Below, piece after piece: positions 49,895 through 58,762 of a stretch of 64,000 nt of DNA. The position numbers and the translations under genes were made by a program. The notes under the pieces were generated by a model. That model saw only the letters and a list, made by a program, of their open reading frames with translations. It was not told the DNA's origin and searched no databases. Position 1 is the first letter of the stretch. Every line of letters starts with the position of its first letter. Source of the stretch: Oscillatoriales cyanobacterium (GTDB lineage Bacteria; Cyanobacteriota; Cyanobacteriia; Cyanobacteriales; Microcoleaceae); NCBI GenBank assembly GCA_004292955.1, contig RDXX01000037.1, positions 62,001 through 126,000 of the forward strand, in the 5' to 3' direction.

Positions 49895-49949
49895 TGATGG
49901 CGTTTATTTATTGCGTAATTCCTGACTTTTGGTCAAGCGGAAATTAATC

Positions 49950-50231
49950 ATGCACTTGTACGTTGTTGTCTATGATATTCCTTGTGACAAGCGTCGCAAG
50001 AAAGTTTTTAACTTGCTTTCCGGTTACGGTACTTGGGTGCAATATTCGGTTTTTGAGTGTGCCCTATCTCAGCGTCAATTTGAGGAGTTGCGCGCTCGCC
50101 TGCGGGGACGGGTTAATTTGGATGAAGATAATATCCGTTTTTATGTTTTGTCAACGCGGGCGATCGGGCAGGTGGAAACTTGGGGTTCTGGCCCGCCGGT
50201 GACTCAACCGCCGACTTCGGTCATTGTTTAA
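49950..50231 (+). CDS. cas2: CRISPR-associated endoribonuclease Cas2
   Basis: MHLYVVVYDIPCDKRRKKVFNLLSGYGTWVQYSVFECALSQRQFEELRARL. Confidence 0.95.
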   Translation: MHLYVVVYDIPCDKRRKKVFNLLSGYGTWVQYSVFECALSQRQFEELRARLRGRVNLDEDNIRFYVLSTRAIGQVETWGSGPPVTQPPTSVIV

Positions 50232-50598
50232 AGTATTTTTTTTAACACTTGACAGCCAGAGAAATCTACGTTACTATGGCTCTATTGCTAGATTATGATT
50301 GTAATCCACACAAGCCCATACAAACTTGCCGTGTTAATTACTACCCAAATCTACAGCACCAGTACCTAGAAAATTGAATAGATTAAAGTAGTGTTTTAGC
50401 GCTTCAATCATTTAGCTATCCGACCGCCTCGCTAAATGGCTGAAACACCGATTATCTCGTATAGGCGGCCGTTCACTTGTCCCGTAAGGGTTTCAGCGAT
50501 TTTTGAGAGCTGATTTTCGGCTCTAAGTGAGCTGAGCATCAGAGGTGGTCGGAAACGGCTTCTAGAGCCTTTACTGGGCACGGCTTTCACAACGAGGT

Positions 50599-53542
50599 GT
50601 CGCAATTCACTTTTCCCCGCAAGGGGATTGAAACACTAGAAACGCTGCTGACCTCTAAAAGTACCTATGGTCGCAATTCACTTTTCCCCGCAAGGGGATT
50701 GAAACTGTAGGAGTTTTAGCTTTCCATTTCTTACTCATATATATTGGAAGTCGCAATTCACTTTTCCCCGCAAGGGGATTGAAACAATAAATGTAATACT
50801 ACTAACAGACATAGAATTCTCGTCGCAATTCACTTTTCCCCGCAAGGGGATTGAAACAACTAAATTCCTAAACTTTTCAGAGCAGACTTTAGCAAGTCGC
50901 AATTCACTTTTCCCCGCAAGGGGATTGAAACTGTTCCGGCGCTTTGGCATAGCGCGTTAAGGTCGCGCTCGCGGCGATCGAGTCGCAATTCACTTTTCCC
51001 CGCAAGGGGATTGAAACTTCGCCTCCGGCTGCTTTTCCGCCAGGACCTTGAGGCGTAGTGTCGCAATTCACTTTTCCCCGCAAGGGGATTGAAACTCATC
51101 TGGTATCGAAACACCATTTTCAGTTAGGATTTCAAAAAGTCGCAATTCACTTTTCCCCGCAAGGGGATTGAAACTTTCATGACCTCTATAGATAGAACCC
51201 CTAGAAAAAAGAGTATTGGAGTCGCAATTCACTTTTCCCCGCAAGGGGATTGAAACTAAAAGTAGTAGTCTTTTAGAAGAGAATTTAGTGTCTACTAAAG
51301 TCGCAATTCACTTTTCCCCGCAAGGGGATTGAAACTAAAAAACCTGAACTTTTTTTCTTGGCTTTGGATTGATGTCGCAATTCACTTTTCCCCGCAAGGG
51401 GATTGAAACTGAGCGAAACGTTTCATCGTTCTTCTGCTCATCTCAGGTTGTCGCAATTCACTTTTCCCCGCAAGGGGATTGAAACACCAGTGACAGTAAA
51501 GCCACTAAGTTTCGTGAATTTTGTCGCAATTCACTTTTCCCCGCAAGGGGATTGAAACAGCAAAAGAGTTGCTTTTTTTGTTCCACCTGATTGTGAGTCG
51601 CAATTCACTTTTCCCCGCAAGGGGATTGAAACTTTTGAGTAGGGATAGATTTTTCTAGTACTTGCAATCTGTCGTCGCGTCGCAATTCACTTTTCCCCGC
51701 AAGGGGATTGAAACTTTTTTTGCGTAGATTAATGCGACCTCCTCTAGAAGTCTTCTGTCGCAATTCACTTTTCCCCGCAAGGGGATTGAAACACAAATGA
51801 TATCGTTTTCATCAGAGTATTCTTTCTCTTGTAGTCGCAATTCACTTTTCCCCGCAAGGGGATTGAAACTTAAGGCTAAATTCCATGCTATTAAACCTAT
51901 AATAGCAAGGTCGCAATTCACTTTTCCCCGCAAGGGGATTGAAACTTTTTTCCATCTTCATTTAATCTTGGATCATCAAACCGCAGAGTCCAGTCGCAAT
52001 TCACTTTTCCCCGCAAGGGGATTGAAACATACAGTGAATATTACCTTTAGGATAGGTATCTACCAAGTCGCAATTCACTTTTCCCCGCAAGGGGATTGAA
52101 ACTTTCCTTTGTTTTACTTGTTACACCTAGTATAGCACCTAAGCGTCGCAATTCACTTTTCCCCGCAAGGGGATTGAAACTCTATAAAGAAAAGTCCTAG
52201 CTAATTCGTCACTAATTAAGTCGCAATTCACTTTTCCCCGCAAGGGGATTGAAACGAAGGAGTAGAAGATAGATATGAAACTCACATAACACAAAGTCGC
52301 AATTCACTTTTCCCCGCAAGGGGATTGAAACCAAAAATTGCTTCGAGACCATCAGAAATTTTTGCAGTGTCGCAATTCACTTTTCCCCGCAAGGGGATTG
52401 AAACTTTCCGTACAAATTTCTTTACAACTAGTCACTACTGGAGTGTCGCAATTCACTTTTCCCCGCAAGGGGATTGAAACTCAAACCCTTCTCCGAATAA
52501 TTCAGCAGAAGATGCTATTCGAGTCGCAATTCACTTTTCCCCGCAAGGGGATTGAAACGCTTCGATTCGTTCAAAATTGGAGAAGGGGTGATGGTAATTG
52601 GTCGCAATTCACTTTTCCCCGCAAGGGGATTAAAACTCTAGTAGAGATAGTCTCTCCACTGTTTCTAAAGTCGCAATTCACTTTTCCCCGCAAGGGGATT
52701 GAAACTTAGGAACTTCTAGCTCAAGGTCTTCACAAATAGACTTTGCTAGTGTCGCAATTCACTTTTCCCCGCAAGGGGATTGAAACCTCAATATAGTTCT
52801 CTACTACTTTTAAACTATTATCGTCGCAATTCACTTTTCCCCGCAAGGGGATTGAAACGCGACTTAAGACTGTTAAATGGGCAACTCCTCAGAAGTATAA
52901 GGTAAGTCGCAATTCACTTTTCCCCGCAAGGGGATTGAAACGTCGTCTCGTTGTCCCTTTCTACATTTTGGACATACCGTCGCAATTCACTTTTCCCCGC
53001 AAGGGGATTGAAACAAATTCTTTTTCTGATATATCCGAACTGTAAGCCATATTAAGTCGCAATTCACTTTTCCCCGCAAGGGGATTGAAACTATAACCAC
53101 TTGTTCAGAGTAGCAATAGTCGTTGAAATAAAGTCGCAATTCACTTTTCCCCGCAAGGGGATTGAAACTATAATTGCTTTTGATAGATTTTGTGACCATC
53201 AGAAGTCGCAATTCACTTTTCCCCGCAAGGGGATTGAAACTTCCCCCACCAGTCTTTCTGAGAGCAGTCGATATATTGAGTCGCAATTCACTTTTCCCCG
53301 CAAGGGGATTAAAACCCTCCTACTACTTGCTCAATTGTATCTATCATTTTTTTGTGTCGCAATTCACTTTTCCCCGCAAGGGGATTGAAACTCTGGCTTA
53401 TCTGCACGAGCCAGGCTAATGACTAGGTGGCCGAGTCGCTATTCACTTTTCCCCGCAAGGGGATTGAAACTTGAAACAAGAAGTTTCTTGCTCCCAACTA
53501 CCAGAAGAAAACCTATTCAAGTCGCAATTCACTTTTCCCCGC
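50599..53542 (+). CRISPR. CRISPR array, 38 full 36-nt repeats plus one truncated repeat
   Basis: Repeat GTCGCAATTCACTTTTCCCCGCAAGGGGATTGAAAC; first 50599..50634, last full 53435..53470, truncated copy at 53521. Confidence 0.99.
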
Positions 53543-53725
53543 TGAGTCTCTCGCGCTGAGTCCGAGAAACCGGGTTTCTATGGCAATTGATGTATTTTCA
53601 CGAGATTTTACGCAGAAACCCGGTTTCTGAGTCTCTCGCGCTGAGTCCGAGAAACCGGGTTTCTATGGCAATTGACGTATTTTCACGAGAAGAAACCCGG
53701 TTTCTGAGTCTCTCGCGCTGAGTCC
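53542..53725. repeat. REP/BIME block at the distal end of the CRISPR array
   Basis: ctgagtctctcgcgctgagtccgagaaaccgggtttctatggcaattga... repeated twice, with C-centred partners. Confidence 0.95.
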
Positions 53726-55311: not shown

Positions 55312-55911
55312 TTAAAAATTTAGCACAATAAATACGGAAGAACCCTGTTTTTTAACAGCACGAGCGATTAAAGGTGCTTTCTTTTCTAATCCTTCTAAAT
55401 TAAGTTCATTTTCTCGATACATCCGATACCACTCCTGACGTTGTTCAATCACCCATTCACTATTCTGAAGCTGTAACTTTTTGAGAGTAAATTCTGCTCG
55501 ATCGCGATCGCCAGCAGGAACCGCATCAGTCAAAACCAACTGACAAGAAGGTAGGATAATCTCAAACCAATTATCTTCTACTTCAAACGGATCGAGAATT
55601 TGTCGATCGTAAGTTCCTTTGCAGCTATTTACCCGTTGCAAAGCATAGCGATAGTTTTTCCATTCATAAATCAAATGGCGGTTTTCTGGTTTACTTTTAC
55701 TCAAATAATGATCCACAGTACCCATCCGACTCGGTATGTGCATCACCGAATAACCACAAAGATTGTGGAACTCTTTAGCTAATTGAGGTTTGAAGCTAGA
55801 CCAAAAATCTTTTGGTTCTTTACCGGGATTTTTATCTAACCAATGATTCCCTGCTTTTCGCACCTGTTCCTCAAAATTCGTTGGTTCCGGTGGCGGAGTA
55901 AATCGCATCAT
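55312..55911 (-). CDS. HNH-nuclease-like protein (PtuB/TIGR02646-like)
   Basis: FHNLCGYSVMHIPSRMGTVDHYLSKSKPENRHLIYEWKNYRYALQRVNSCKG; start at MMRFTPPPEP. Confidence 0.65.
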   Translation of the reverse strand: MMRFTPPPEPTNFEEQVRKAGNHWLDKNPGKEPKDFWSSFKPQLAKEFHNLCGYSVMHIPSRMGTVDHYLSKSKPENRHLIYEWKNYRYALQRVNSCKGTYDRQILDPFEVEDNWFEIILPSCQLVLTDAVPAGDRDRAEFTLKKLQLQNSEWVIEQRQEWYRMYRENELNLEGLEKKAPLIARAVKKQGSSVFIVLNF

Positions 55912-55913
55912 CT

Positions 55914-57602
55914 TTACTCTACCTCGGTGCTGACAATCCATCGAGGCCAGAAGCGATCGTGTTCTGGTAAAACTCGCAGGAGTTCCTGATGAATTTGCTC
56001 TTTAGTTCTCAGGTATTCAGGAAAAGTTTCCATGCTGTCTCCTCGCATGAAGGTATATGCTGCATCAATCGCTATTTCTGCTTCGCGAGAACGCGCTTGT
56101 TTTAATCCAAAAATATCGGAAGTTAGCCACCCCACAGCATCCCCATGTTTTGTCCAAGGAACTTGATTAAGAGTTACATCTTTACCATGTAACTCAAACA
56201 AAAATAACTTATCTTGTTCCTCATCAAATTCAGGCTCGATTGAGGCAAGTACAAGAGGAGAATGAGTGGTCGCTATTAACTGAACTTGCATTTCATTTTT
56301 AAGACTTTTAACTACTTCTAATATCGCAGGAAGAATCGATCGTTGCCAAGCTGGATGTAAGTGAGCTTCAACCTCGTCTATTAAAAAGACTATTTGATCG
56401 ATAGGTTCTTTCTGTCGTAACTTAGCTGCTTCGATATGTTCATGCCACGTCCACATTAGTATGTAAGCAAGTCCTAAAATTCGTTTTATTCCTGCTGATG
56501 CATAGATAATAGGCACATTTCCATAAGGAAAATTTAGCGTAGGAATATCACGGGTATCTTCTATAGAAACCCGTGTGGGCTTCCCAGGTTCCATCAATTC
56601 ATCTTCATGAGAAGAAAGTTTTCTAATCATAGAAGAGAATATTTCAAATGTAGACTCTTCTCGCTGTCGTTGCCAATTGACCCAATCGTGAATTAAACCA
56701 TTACATAGAACTTTATTATCGGTTCTTAAGCCATTCCAAAGATGATCGGAAGTAAAGTTATAGATACTGGACTGTTGACGAACCGGGTCAAAAACTGAAA
56801 ATCCACCATCAACACGGACATAAATAATCAAGCTTCTTAACAAGGGAGGTACTCGCAGATTCAGCCATTTCTCATTTGAAAAACTAAAAAGGCTACGATA
56901 TTCCTCAGAATCTCTCTCATGGCTCAACACAGAAGTAATTTCTGGTGTTTTCCCTTCTACCTGTTGAGGCCAAGCAGGTCGATCAACCCAGTTTCCGGTT
57001 AGTCCCCACCAAGCAATATCTAGCAAAAAAGTTTTACCAAGACCATTGTCTCCAGTAAACAAATTGATTCTTTCGCCGAATTCAACATCGAATTCTGGAG
57101 CTGTTCCCACCCATTTTAGGTGAAGTTCTTTCAGCATCTTATGGTGAATAGATCCATCAAATTCTAAGTAGTATTCAGAATCAGATAATTGATACAGACG
57201 GATATAGTCTCTACCATAGGCTTGAAGTGTCTGGCTTGTAACAGGTTCAAATTGTTTCAGGACACCACTTTTTTCTAGCTTGCCTTTAATCCAACGTCCT
57301 AAAATTTTTAAATCATCTTTGGATCTAAAGTTTTTGTGATTTGCTCCTTGAGTTTGGCAATCAAATGTTAAACCATCATCTGTATGAGCGAGAAAATTAC
57401 CTTTTGGATAGATAGGATCGCTTATTGTTTTTGAATCCACAATAAGTTCAACTTCGTACCAATCTCTTGGGATAACTTTACCAGATTTATTCGCGCGCCC
57501 TTTGCCAAAAAAAGTATTGAGATTTGATTGCTGCTGTTTATCAACTCTTGATAATGATATGTCCACATAGGGTGTTTCTGGAGTTATGGTAGGTATGGAC
57601 AT
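55914..57602 (-). CDS. ABC-type AAA ATPase (PtuA/OLD-like)
   Basis: Walker A GDNGLGKTFLLD, Walker B IVFLIDEVEAHLHPAWQ, H-loop LIATTHSPLVLAS. Confidence 0.88.
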   Translation of the reverse strand: MSIPTITPETPYVDISLSRVDKQQQSNLNTFFGKGRANKSGKVIPRDWYEVELIVDSKTISDPIYPKGNFLAHTDDGLTFDCQTQGANHKNFRSKDDLKILGRWIKGKLEKSGVLKQFEPVTSQTLQAYGRDYIRLYQLSDSEYYLEFDGSIHHKMLKELHLKWVGTAPEFDVEFGERINLFTGDNGLGKTFLLDIAWWGLTGNWVDRPAWPQQVEGKTPEITSVLSHERDSEEYRSLFSFSNEKWLNLRVPPLLRSLIIYVRVDGGFSVFDPVRQQSSIYNFTSDHLWNGLRTDNKVLCNGLIHDWVNWQRQREESTFEIFSSMIRKLSSHEDELMEPGKPTRVSIEDTRDIPTLNFPYGNVPIIYASAGIKRILGLAYILMWTWHEHIEAAKLRQKEPIDQIVFLIDEVEAHLHPAWQRSILPAILEVVKSLKNEMQVQLIATTHSPLVLASIEPEFDEEQDKLFLFELHGKDVTLNQVPWTKHGDAVGWLTSDIFGLKQARSREAEIAIDAAYTFMRGDSMETFPEYLRTKEQIHQELLRVLPEHDRFWPRWIVSTEVE

Positions 57603-57619
57603 TAAGTCACCTCACTTGA

Positions 57620-58762
57620 CTAAACATTAATCGTAAATTGTAATTGCTGTTGAGAAGCCTCTGATTCTGCGTGTTCTAATCGTTCTTTAATTGACATTAA
57701 TTGCAATTTTTTATTTAAATTGTATAAATCGATTTTCTGATAATCCTCTTGAAATAAGGGAATCAGTGATTCCACAACTTCAACTATGCCATCGGGCGGA
57801 ACTGCATTGCCAATTTGTCTTCTTACTTCAGTAATAGAACCTTCAAAAACAAAATCATCGGGAAAACTTTGCAACCTTGCTCTTTCCCTATTTGTCAATG
57901 AACGGGGTTCGGGATAATGATATCCCCAAGTACCGCCACCACCACCAGCAATAATTGTAGCACAGGGTTTATCTGGATGAATTCGCCGATAAACGTGGCT
58001 GATCATGCCTTTCACATAGTATGGACTATCTTTGGGAATATCAGTAAAATTCCCTCCCGGTTTGATGCGACTCAAAATTTCAATGGTTCGTGGCTGAATT
58101 TTCTGATGTTCTTGATTATATTTGACTTTTTCGACATTTTTGAGTGCTTGGCCGGCAGTTCGATAAGGATAATTGCGATTTTCACCGTATTTTGGCTGAG
58201 GATGTACAAAGTTAAATCCTGTATCCATGCGAATGCCAACTAATAATACTCTTTGGCGAAATTGGGGGACTCCGTAATCCGCAAAATTGTATAGTTTTGG
58301 TTTGACCAAGTAGCCGGGAGCGATACTTTCAAAGTCGGAAATTATTTGTTTGATTGCTTGATAATTATTGGCGCTTAATAAGCCTTTGACATTTTCTGCT
58401 ACAAAAGCTTTTGGCTGTTTTTTATTAACAAAATCTAGAAAGTATGTGTATAAATTGCCTCTGGTTCCTTCCAGTCCTGGACGTTTCCAAATCATGGAAA
58501 AGTCTTGACAAGGAAATCCTCCTATACATATGTCTGCATCTGGAACTTGGGTAATGTCTATATTTTCTATGCTGTCGTTGACGATGACATTGGCGATATT
58601 TCTGCTGAATGTTTTGCAGGCGTATTTGTTGGAGTCGATCGCCCAAACCACCTCAAATCCGGCTTTGTGGAATGGCAAATCCATGCCGCCACAACCTGAA
58701 AACAATGATATCAGTTGCGGTTTGGTTTTCCAGGCGATCGGCTTGAGACGTTCGATTAACAT
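57620..58762 (-). CDS. DNA (cytosine-5-)-methyltransferase
   Basis: LFSGCGGMDLPFHKAGFE, GGFPCQDFS, AENVKGLL, FRQRVLLVGIR, TNRERARLQSFPDDF, QIGNAVPP. Confidence 0.96.
   Translation of the reverse strand: MLIERLKPIAWKTKPQLISLFSGCGGMDLPFHKAGFEVVWAIDSNKYACKTFSRNIANVIVNDSIENIDITQVPDADICIGGFPCQDFSMIWKRPGLEGTRGNLYTYFLDFVNKKQPKAFVAENVKGLLSANNYQAIKQIISDFESIAPGYLVKPKLYNFADYGVPQFRQRVLLVGIRMDTGFNFVHPQPKYGENRNYPYRTAGQALKNVEKVKYNQEHQKIQPRTIEILSRIKPGGNFTDIPKDSPYYVKGMISHVYRRIHPDKPCATIIAGGGGGTWGYHYPEPRSLTNRERARLQSFPDDFVFEGSITEVRRQIGNAVPPDGIVEVVESLIPLFQEDYQKIDLYNLNKKLQLMSIKERLEHAESEASQQQLQFTINV

Follow-up and report, generated by a model that had tools for sequence, protein, structure and literature searches.

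The locus described herein is a new combination of two known kinds of system, Septu and NgoAVII/CglI-type restriction-modification (RM). A C5 DNA methylase gene is followed by a gene whose product joins the B3 domain with which an NgoAVII-type restriction enzyme binds DNA to PtuA, the ATPase of the anti-phage system Septu, and then by the gene for the HNH protein PtuB. We consider it reasonably probable that the locus descends from an NgoAVII/CglI-type RM system in which PtuAB has taken the place of the PLD nuclease and the helicase, and in which self is masked by the methylase. Septu would here probably act only on DNA that lacks the host methyl marks, and the B3 domain is real evidence for such methylation-guided action. 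The features observed directly are the gene order, the domain make-up, the NgoAVII homology of methylase and B3, the exact junction between B3 and PtuA, conservation, and purifying selection. The argument is built on the fixed adjacency of the genes, the shared ancestry of the B3 domains and selection on B3, because co-occurrence alone says little when the methylase is near-universal among the genomes surveyed.

Organization of the locus

The window, by which we mean the whole 64-kb stretch of DNA that was analyzed, sits in the chromosome of a filamentous cyanobacterium (G000:C141), with a 7.29-Mb genome whose closest named relatives are Microcoleus. In the open reading frame (ORF) list of the window, three genes run along the minus strand from 58762 to 55312 in the order C5 methylase, ATPase and HNH protein, in agreement with an earlier note on this DNA that had described three same-strand genes with a first gap of 17 nt. 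The methylase gene (57620..58762, minus strand) encodes 380 aa and the ATPase ORF (55914..57602, minus strand) encodes 562 aa, and the spacer between them (57603..57619, minus strand) holds a ribosome-binding-like AAGTGAGGTGA. For the third ORF (55312..55941, minus strand; 209 aa) there are two candidate starts. The first ATG produces a 28-nt overlap with the ATPase ORF, whereas an internal ATG (MMRF, 55911) lies 2 nt past the ATPase end. The internal ATG is the likely start, and several homologues begin at this same point. The description of the third gene as starting right after the second applies from MMRF, but not from the first ATG.

Upstream of the cluster are a Uma2-like gene and a gene that, from its sequence, we take to be HisS. 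Downstream is what is presumably AroF (DAHP synthase), also named from its sequence, and then a CRISPR array (50597-53580) with approximately 38 repeats (GTCGCAATTCACTTTTCCCCGCAAGGGGATTGAAAC), situated about 2 kb from the cluster. A Cas2-like ORF (49929-50231) adjoins the array.

Identity of PtuA and PtuB

PADLOC assigns residues 156-560 of the ATPase to PtuA (PDLC00307, 7.4e-175) and the HNH protein to PtuB (PDLC00348, 6.6e-72), and the top Foldseek match for an AlphaFold model of the ATPase is E. coli PtuAB (8eea, 5e-14). The PtuA module (aa 156-562; 55914..57137, minus strand) retains intact Walker A (GDNGLGKT, 184), Walker B (IVFLIDE, 404) and H-loop (TTHS, 445) motifs. PtuB exhibits a VDH...N...N-K layout, and its HNH residues are invariant among 14 homologues. 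These findings, which include the PADLOC and Foldseek searches that the earlier note had proposed, bear out its view of an ABC-type ATPase with all three motifs intact and of an HNH-like protein of the PtuB kind. It had also called the ATPase PtuA/OLD-like, of which the PtuA part stands; an OLD- or Gabija-like identity was rejected on account of the much better scores obtained with models and structures of PtuA.

The window proteins resemble those of Septu type I (PtuA and PtuB) in that both are homologous over their full length and have intact active-site motifs, and in that the PtuB gene comes directly after that of PtuA. Unlike in Septu type I, PtuA in the window has a sequence-reading B3 domain at its N terminus and adjoins a methylase. 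There is also a likeness to the type I-A retron (Septu type II), in which PtuAB is subordinate to a sensor or guard module of its own kind (PMC8565338). In contrast to the retron, the guard in the window would be DNA methylation read by B3, with no involvement of a reverse transcriptase. Indeed, no reverse transcriptase is present beside PtuA, whose neighbors are the methylase, the Uma2-like gene, HisS and AroF.

A B3 domain of NgoAVII type fused to PtuA

The ATPase carries an N-terminal B3 DNA-binding domain of the R.NgoAVII type (aa 1-148; 57159..57602, minus strand), which was absent from the earlier note's description of this protein. The first ~150 residues match the Pfam family RE_NgoFVII_C, which is B3-like and DNA-binding (PF20731, 2.9e-28), and residues 19-142 correspond to the B3 domain of R.NgoAVII (PDB 4rd5, 4e-34; 4rct, 2e-33). 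Identity to the NgoAVII B3 is 45-49%. This region is of low confidence in the AlphaFold model, and so the B3 assignment rests on sequence.

The manner in which the fusion is built can be read from its relatives. B3-only and PLD-B3 proteins of the family terminate in YYLEF, followed by a stop, and plain cyanobacterial PtuA begins MLKELH. The window protein reads YYLEF-DGSIHHK-MLKELH. By this comparison, B3-PtuA is two whole proteins joined via the seven residues DGSIHHK (57138..57158, minus strand). The same junction, with a slightly varied linker, occurs in all seven genomes that carry the fusion, and an assembly artefact was therefore rejected as its source.

The methylase connects the locus to the same RM systems. 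As previously noted, it is a complete C5 methyltransferase (Pfam DNA_methylase, 2.7e-77), with all motifs present (FSGCGG 21, GFPCQ 82, AENV 122, QFRQR 167, GNAVPP 318). It is 62% identical over 357 aa to the methylase of the N. gonorrhoeae NgoAVII locus, and 61.5% identical in the target-recognition region. At that locus (L181), the gene for the methylase (374 aa) is followed by those for an R protein of 345 aa and a further protein of 629 aa. M.CglI and M.NgoAVII are likewise 62% identical, and both methylate GCSGC (PMC4267653). On the strength of this comparison, GCSGC is the most likely predicted recognition sequence for the window methylase, and likewise for its B3 domain. Avoidance of GCSGC was sought in the 64-kb window, where 116 sites are present vs 112 expected; the sequence is not avoided.

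In CglI and NgoAVII, the R protein consists of PLD and B3, cleavage takes place 6-7 nt away from GCCGC, and stimulation of the ATPase comes only or mainly from unmethylated sites (PMC4267653). Such systems, which comprise a C5 methylase, R(PLD-B3) and an SF2 helicase-like ATPase, share with the window a homologous methylase directly before a gene with a homologous B3, and the window trio keeps their three-gene logic of methylase, address and ATPase. The window locus differs in that it lacks the PLD nuclease and the helicase-like ATPase and has PtuA (ABC-type, B3-fused) and PtuB (HNH) instead. No PLD-superfamily nuclease domain was matched by Pfam among the window proteins, and the N terminus of B3-PtuA begins at B3. 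Neither an SF2 helicase-like nor a Z1 ATPase subunit is found at the locus, where PtuB and then AroF come next.

Distribution among relatives

The survey set comprised 62 genomes of the family, in which some loci end at contig ends. The methylase is present in 53 of them, mostly without PtuAB. Intact B3-PtuA and PtuB are located behind it in 7/62 genomes (the window's own, G400, G405, G406, G412, G413 and G417, the PtuB of G417 looking truncated), and the gap between methylase and fusion is 17 nt at every one of these loci. The survey turned up no intact fusion that lacked the methylase. With a methylase so nearly universal in this family, however, its adjacency to the fusion is weak evidence of co-dependence.

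Behind the methylase in other family genomes are plain PtuA and PtuB without B3 (G399, G402, G403), B3 alone (G411, G418), PLD-B3 or its remnants (G421, G424, G435, G390, G434, G324), what is left of a fusion (G397) and a scrap of PtuA (G199). Three genomes thus have PtuAB beside the methylase in the absence of B3, which indicates that B3 is not indispensable at the locus. At the remaining loci, some of them interrupted by contig ends, nothing recognizable follows the methylase. AroF lies within ~0.3-0.4 kb past the methylase in G407 and G042, and by comparison these two appear to represent the empty site. A decaying effector with a retained methylase is seen at L048, L050 and L061.

The methylase lineage of the window is paired with PLD-B3 nucleases in G421 and G424. 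Outside the family, the same pairing is seen in G520, where an intact PLD-B3 nuclease comes after the methylase (59%; L169), and on plasmids of Mucilaginibacter and Providencia. Plasmids also hold plain PtuAB. The B3-PtuA fusion was found neither on plasmids nor on viral contigs, and the latter include one long PtuA with no methylase in the preceding 906 bases. Other cyanobacterial PtuA proteins of the window type (~60% identity) belong mostly to plain two-gene Septu amid unrelated genes. Since Septu elsewhere is as a rule plain and has no methylase, the link between methylase and Septu is limited to the B3-PtuA branch. The three-gene synteny put forward in the earlier note accordingly applies to this branch, in which all seven fusions lie 17 nt behind the methylase, and not beyond it. 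The note had held that its claim fails if the methylase is not co-conserved with the ATPase-HNH pair; most PtuAB-bearing cyanobacterial genomes do have PtuAB without a methylase, and what survives is the B3 branch.

Methylases related to that of the window also occur in other arrangements. At L173 (3675-5765), L174 (3252-5348), L175 (3208-5259) and L176 (3944-5989), relatives with 55-59% identity are fused to a C-terminal region of ~350 aa, which may be a further restriction module that shares the methylase's site. In family f31 of the same phylum, four loci (L149-L152) from small genomes of 2 Mb encode a C5 methylase paired with a ~325-aa protein of the PLD-B3 type. At three of the four there is, on the opposite strand, a gene that we take from its sequence to be Vsr-like.

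Selection and phylogeny

In comparisons between the window and its relatives, dN/dS is 0.05-0.21 for B3, 0.16-0.25 for PtuA and 0.08-0.17 for the methylase. PtuB was measured in two copies, which gave 0.17 and 0.37. The fusion is under purifying selection. In a phylogenetic tree, the methylase-adjacent PtuA genes form one well-supported clade that is separate from other Septu PtuA. Both fused and plain PtuA fall within this clade, which is compatible with either order of fusion and B3 loss. Synonymous distances between the window's genome and G412 are unequal along the locus (methylase 0.12, B3 0.30, PtuA 0.68), which points to recombination, or segment exchange, within the operon.

A second methylase-linked Septu

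An N4/N6-type methylase directly precedes a long PtuA (~640 aa) and PtuB at three further loci: L177 (151-3564) in G408, which is of the same genus as the window, L046 (4286-7705), and L060 (4403-7856) in a KSB1 bacterium. As in the window, a methylase stands directly before PtuA and PtuB, and PtuA has an extra N-terminal domain. However, the methylase is of another class and the N-terminal domain is other than B3. This domain (~215 aa) has no Pfam match in the scanned proteins, and its model (pLDDT 63) gave no significant fold match. The link to the N4/N6 methylase is looser, given that long PtuA also occurs in other genomes without an adjacent methylase (L043, L044, L051). Separately, PtuA and PtuB of Aeromonas caviae (L186, 589-7981) are flanked by a 1137-aa ORF on one side and a PglZ-like ORF on the other, and are possibly inside a candidate BREX-type cluster.

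Possible modes of action

The components would most likely act together in the following way. The C5 methylase would mark GCSGC-like sites across the host genome. The B3 domain, presumably once the address domain of a PLD nuclease and now the N terminus of PtuA, would bind the same site if it is unmethylated, as on incoming DNA. Binding would then position and activate an assembly of PtuA, an oligomeric ATPase, with the PtuB HNH nuclease. Our first choice for the output is that PtuAB would destroy foreign DNA, and our second is that tRNA cutting would shut down the cell. The composite proposal is a modification-gated Septu in which unmethylated GCSGC, once read by B3, would turn PtuAB into an active DNase or tRNase and the methylase would be the antidote. 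It is tentative, and we give it slightly less than an even chance. The earlier suggestion that Septu-like proteins restrict while methylation marks self, now with PtuA and PtuB confirmed, is the best-supported reading, although it holds only for the B3-PtuA branch.

The same B3 sensor might instead control a tRNA-cleaving PtuB, in which case the locus would encode a modification-guarded abortive-infection toxin and not a restriction enzyme. A comparable principle is found in the anticodon nuclease PrrC, for which a type I RM enzyme serves as the guard. Two PtuAB pairs destroy tRNA-Tyr: that of retron-Eco7 depletes it, and that of Septu EcB88 cuts it in the variable loop (PMC11555353, PMC13096335). 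Other PtuAB, however, are reported to cut DNA, namely Septu of E. coli ATCC 25922 and retron Ec83. Furthermore, B3 derives from a DNA-cutting enzyme, and a DNA output fits this restriction ancestry. We regard the tRNA-cleaving alternative as rather unlikely, at perhaps one chance in four.

Another explanation is an incidental fusion, in which an ordinary Septu might have landed behind a resident methylase and be read through from a left-over B3 that adds little, such that Septu works here as it does elsewhere. The plain PtuA and PtuB genes beside the same methylase in G399, G402 and G403 are what this explanation would lead one to expect, as are the near-universal methylase and the commonness of plain Septu. 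Against it, B3 is intact in all seven fusions, is constrained at the dN/dS values given above, and is strongly similar to the DNA-binding B3 of R.NgoAVII. An incidental fusion is therefore improbable, with about one chance in five.

Restriction enzymes with domains that read modified bases do exist. Nevertheless, a type IV-like action in which B3-PtuA attacks methylated foreign DNA is very hard to credit, because the host carries a conserved C5 methylase next door, which would make attack on its own mark suicidal, and because characterized B3 relatives respond to unmethylated sites (PMC4267653).

Implications

In the covered portion of the PADLOC paper, Septu is divided into type I and a type II linked to retrons, and Hma is noted in the vicinity of Septu, but no methylase-Septu system is described there (PMC8565338). 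Among open-access titles and abstracts, the scope to which our search was confined, none describes PtuA with B3 or Septu with a methyltransferase or RM system.

The trigger of stand-alone Septu is not settled in the papers covered here, and in the window a DNA-addressing domain of known origin is joined to PtuA. Because B3 on PtuA stands beside a methylase with a predictable site, the trigger lends itself to a simple test with plasmids, and whether PtuB cuts DNA or tRNA could be read out under a defined on-switch. If the proposed reading is true, Septu would be an effector module that is plugged into varied self/non-self sensors, including retron msDNA, a C5 methylase with B3, and an N4/N6 methylase with another domain. 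The locus, together with relatives that survive at several stages, also illustrates how a restriction module can take another's place behind the same methylase.
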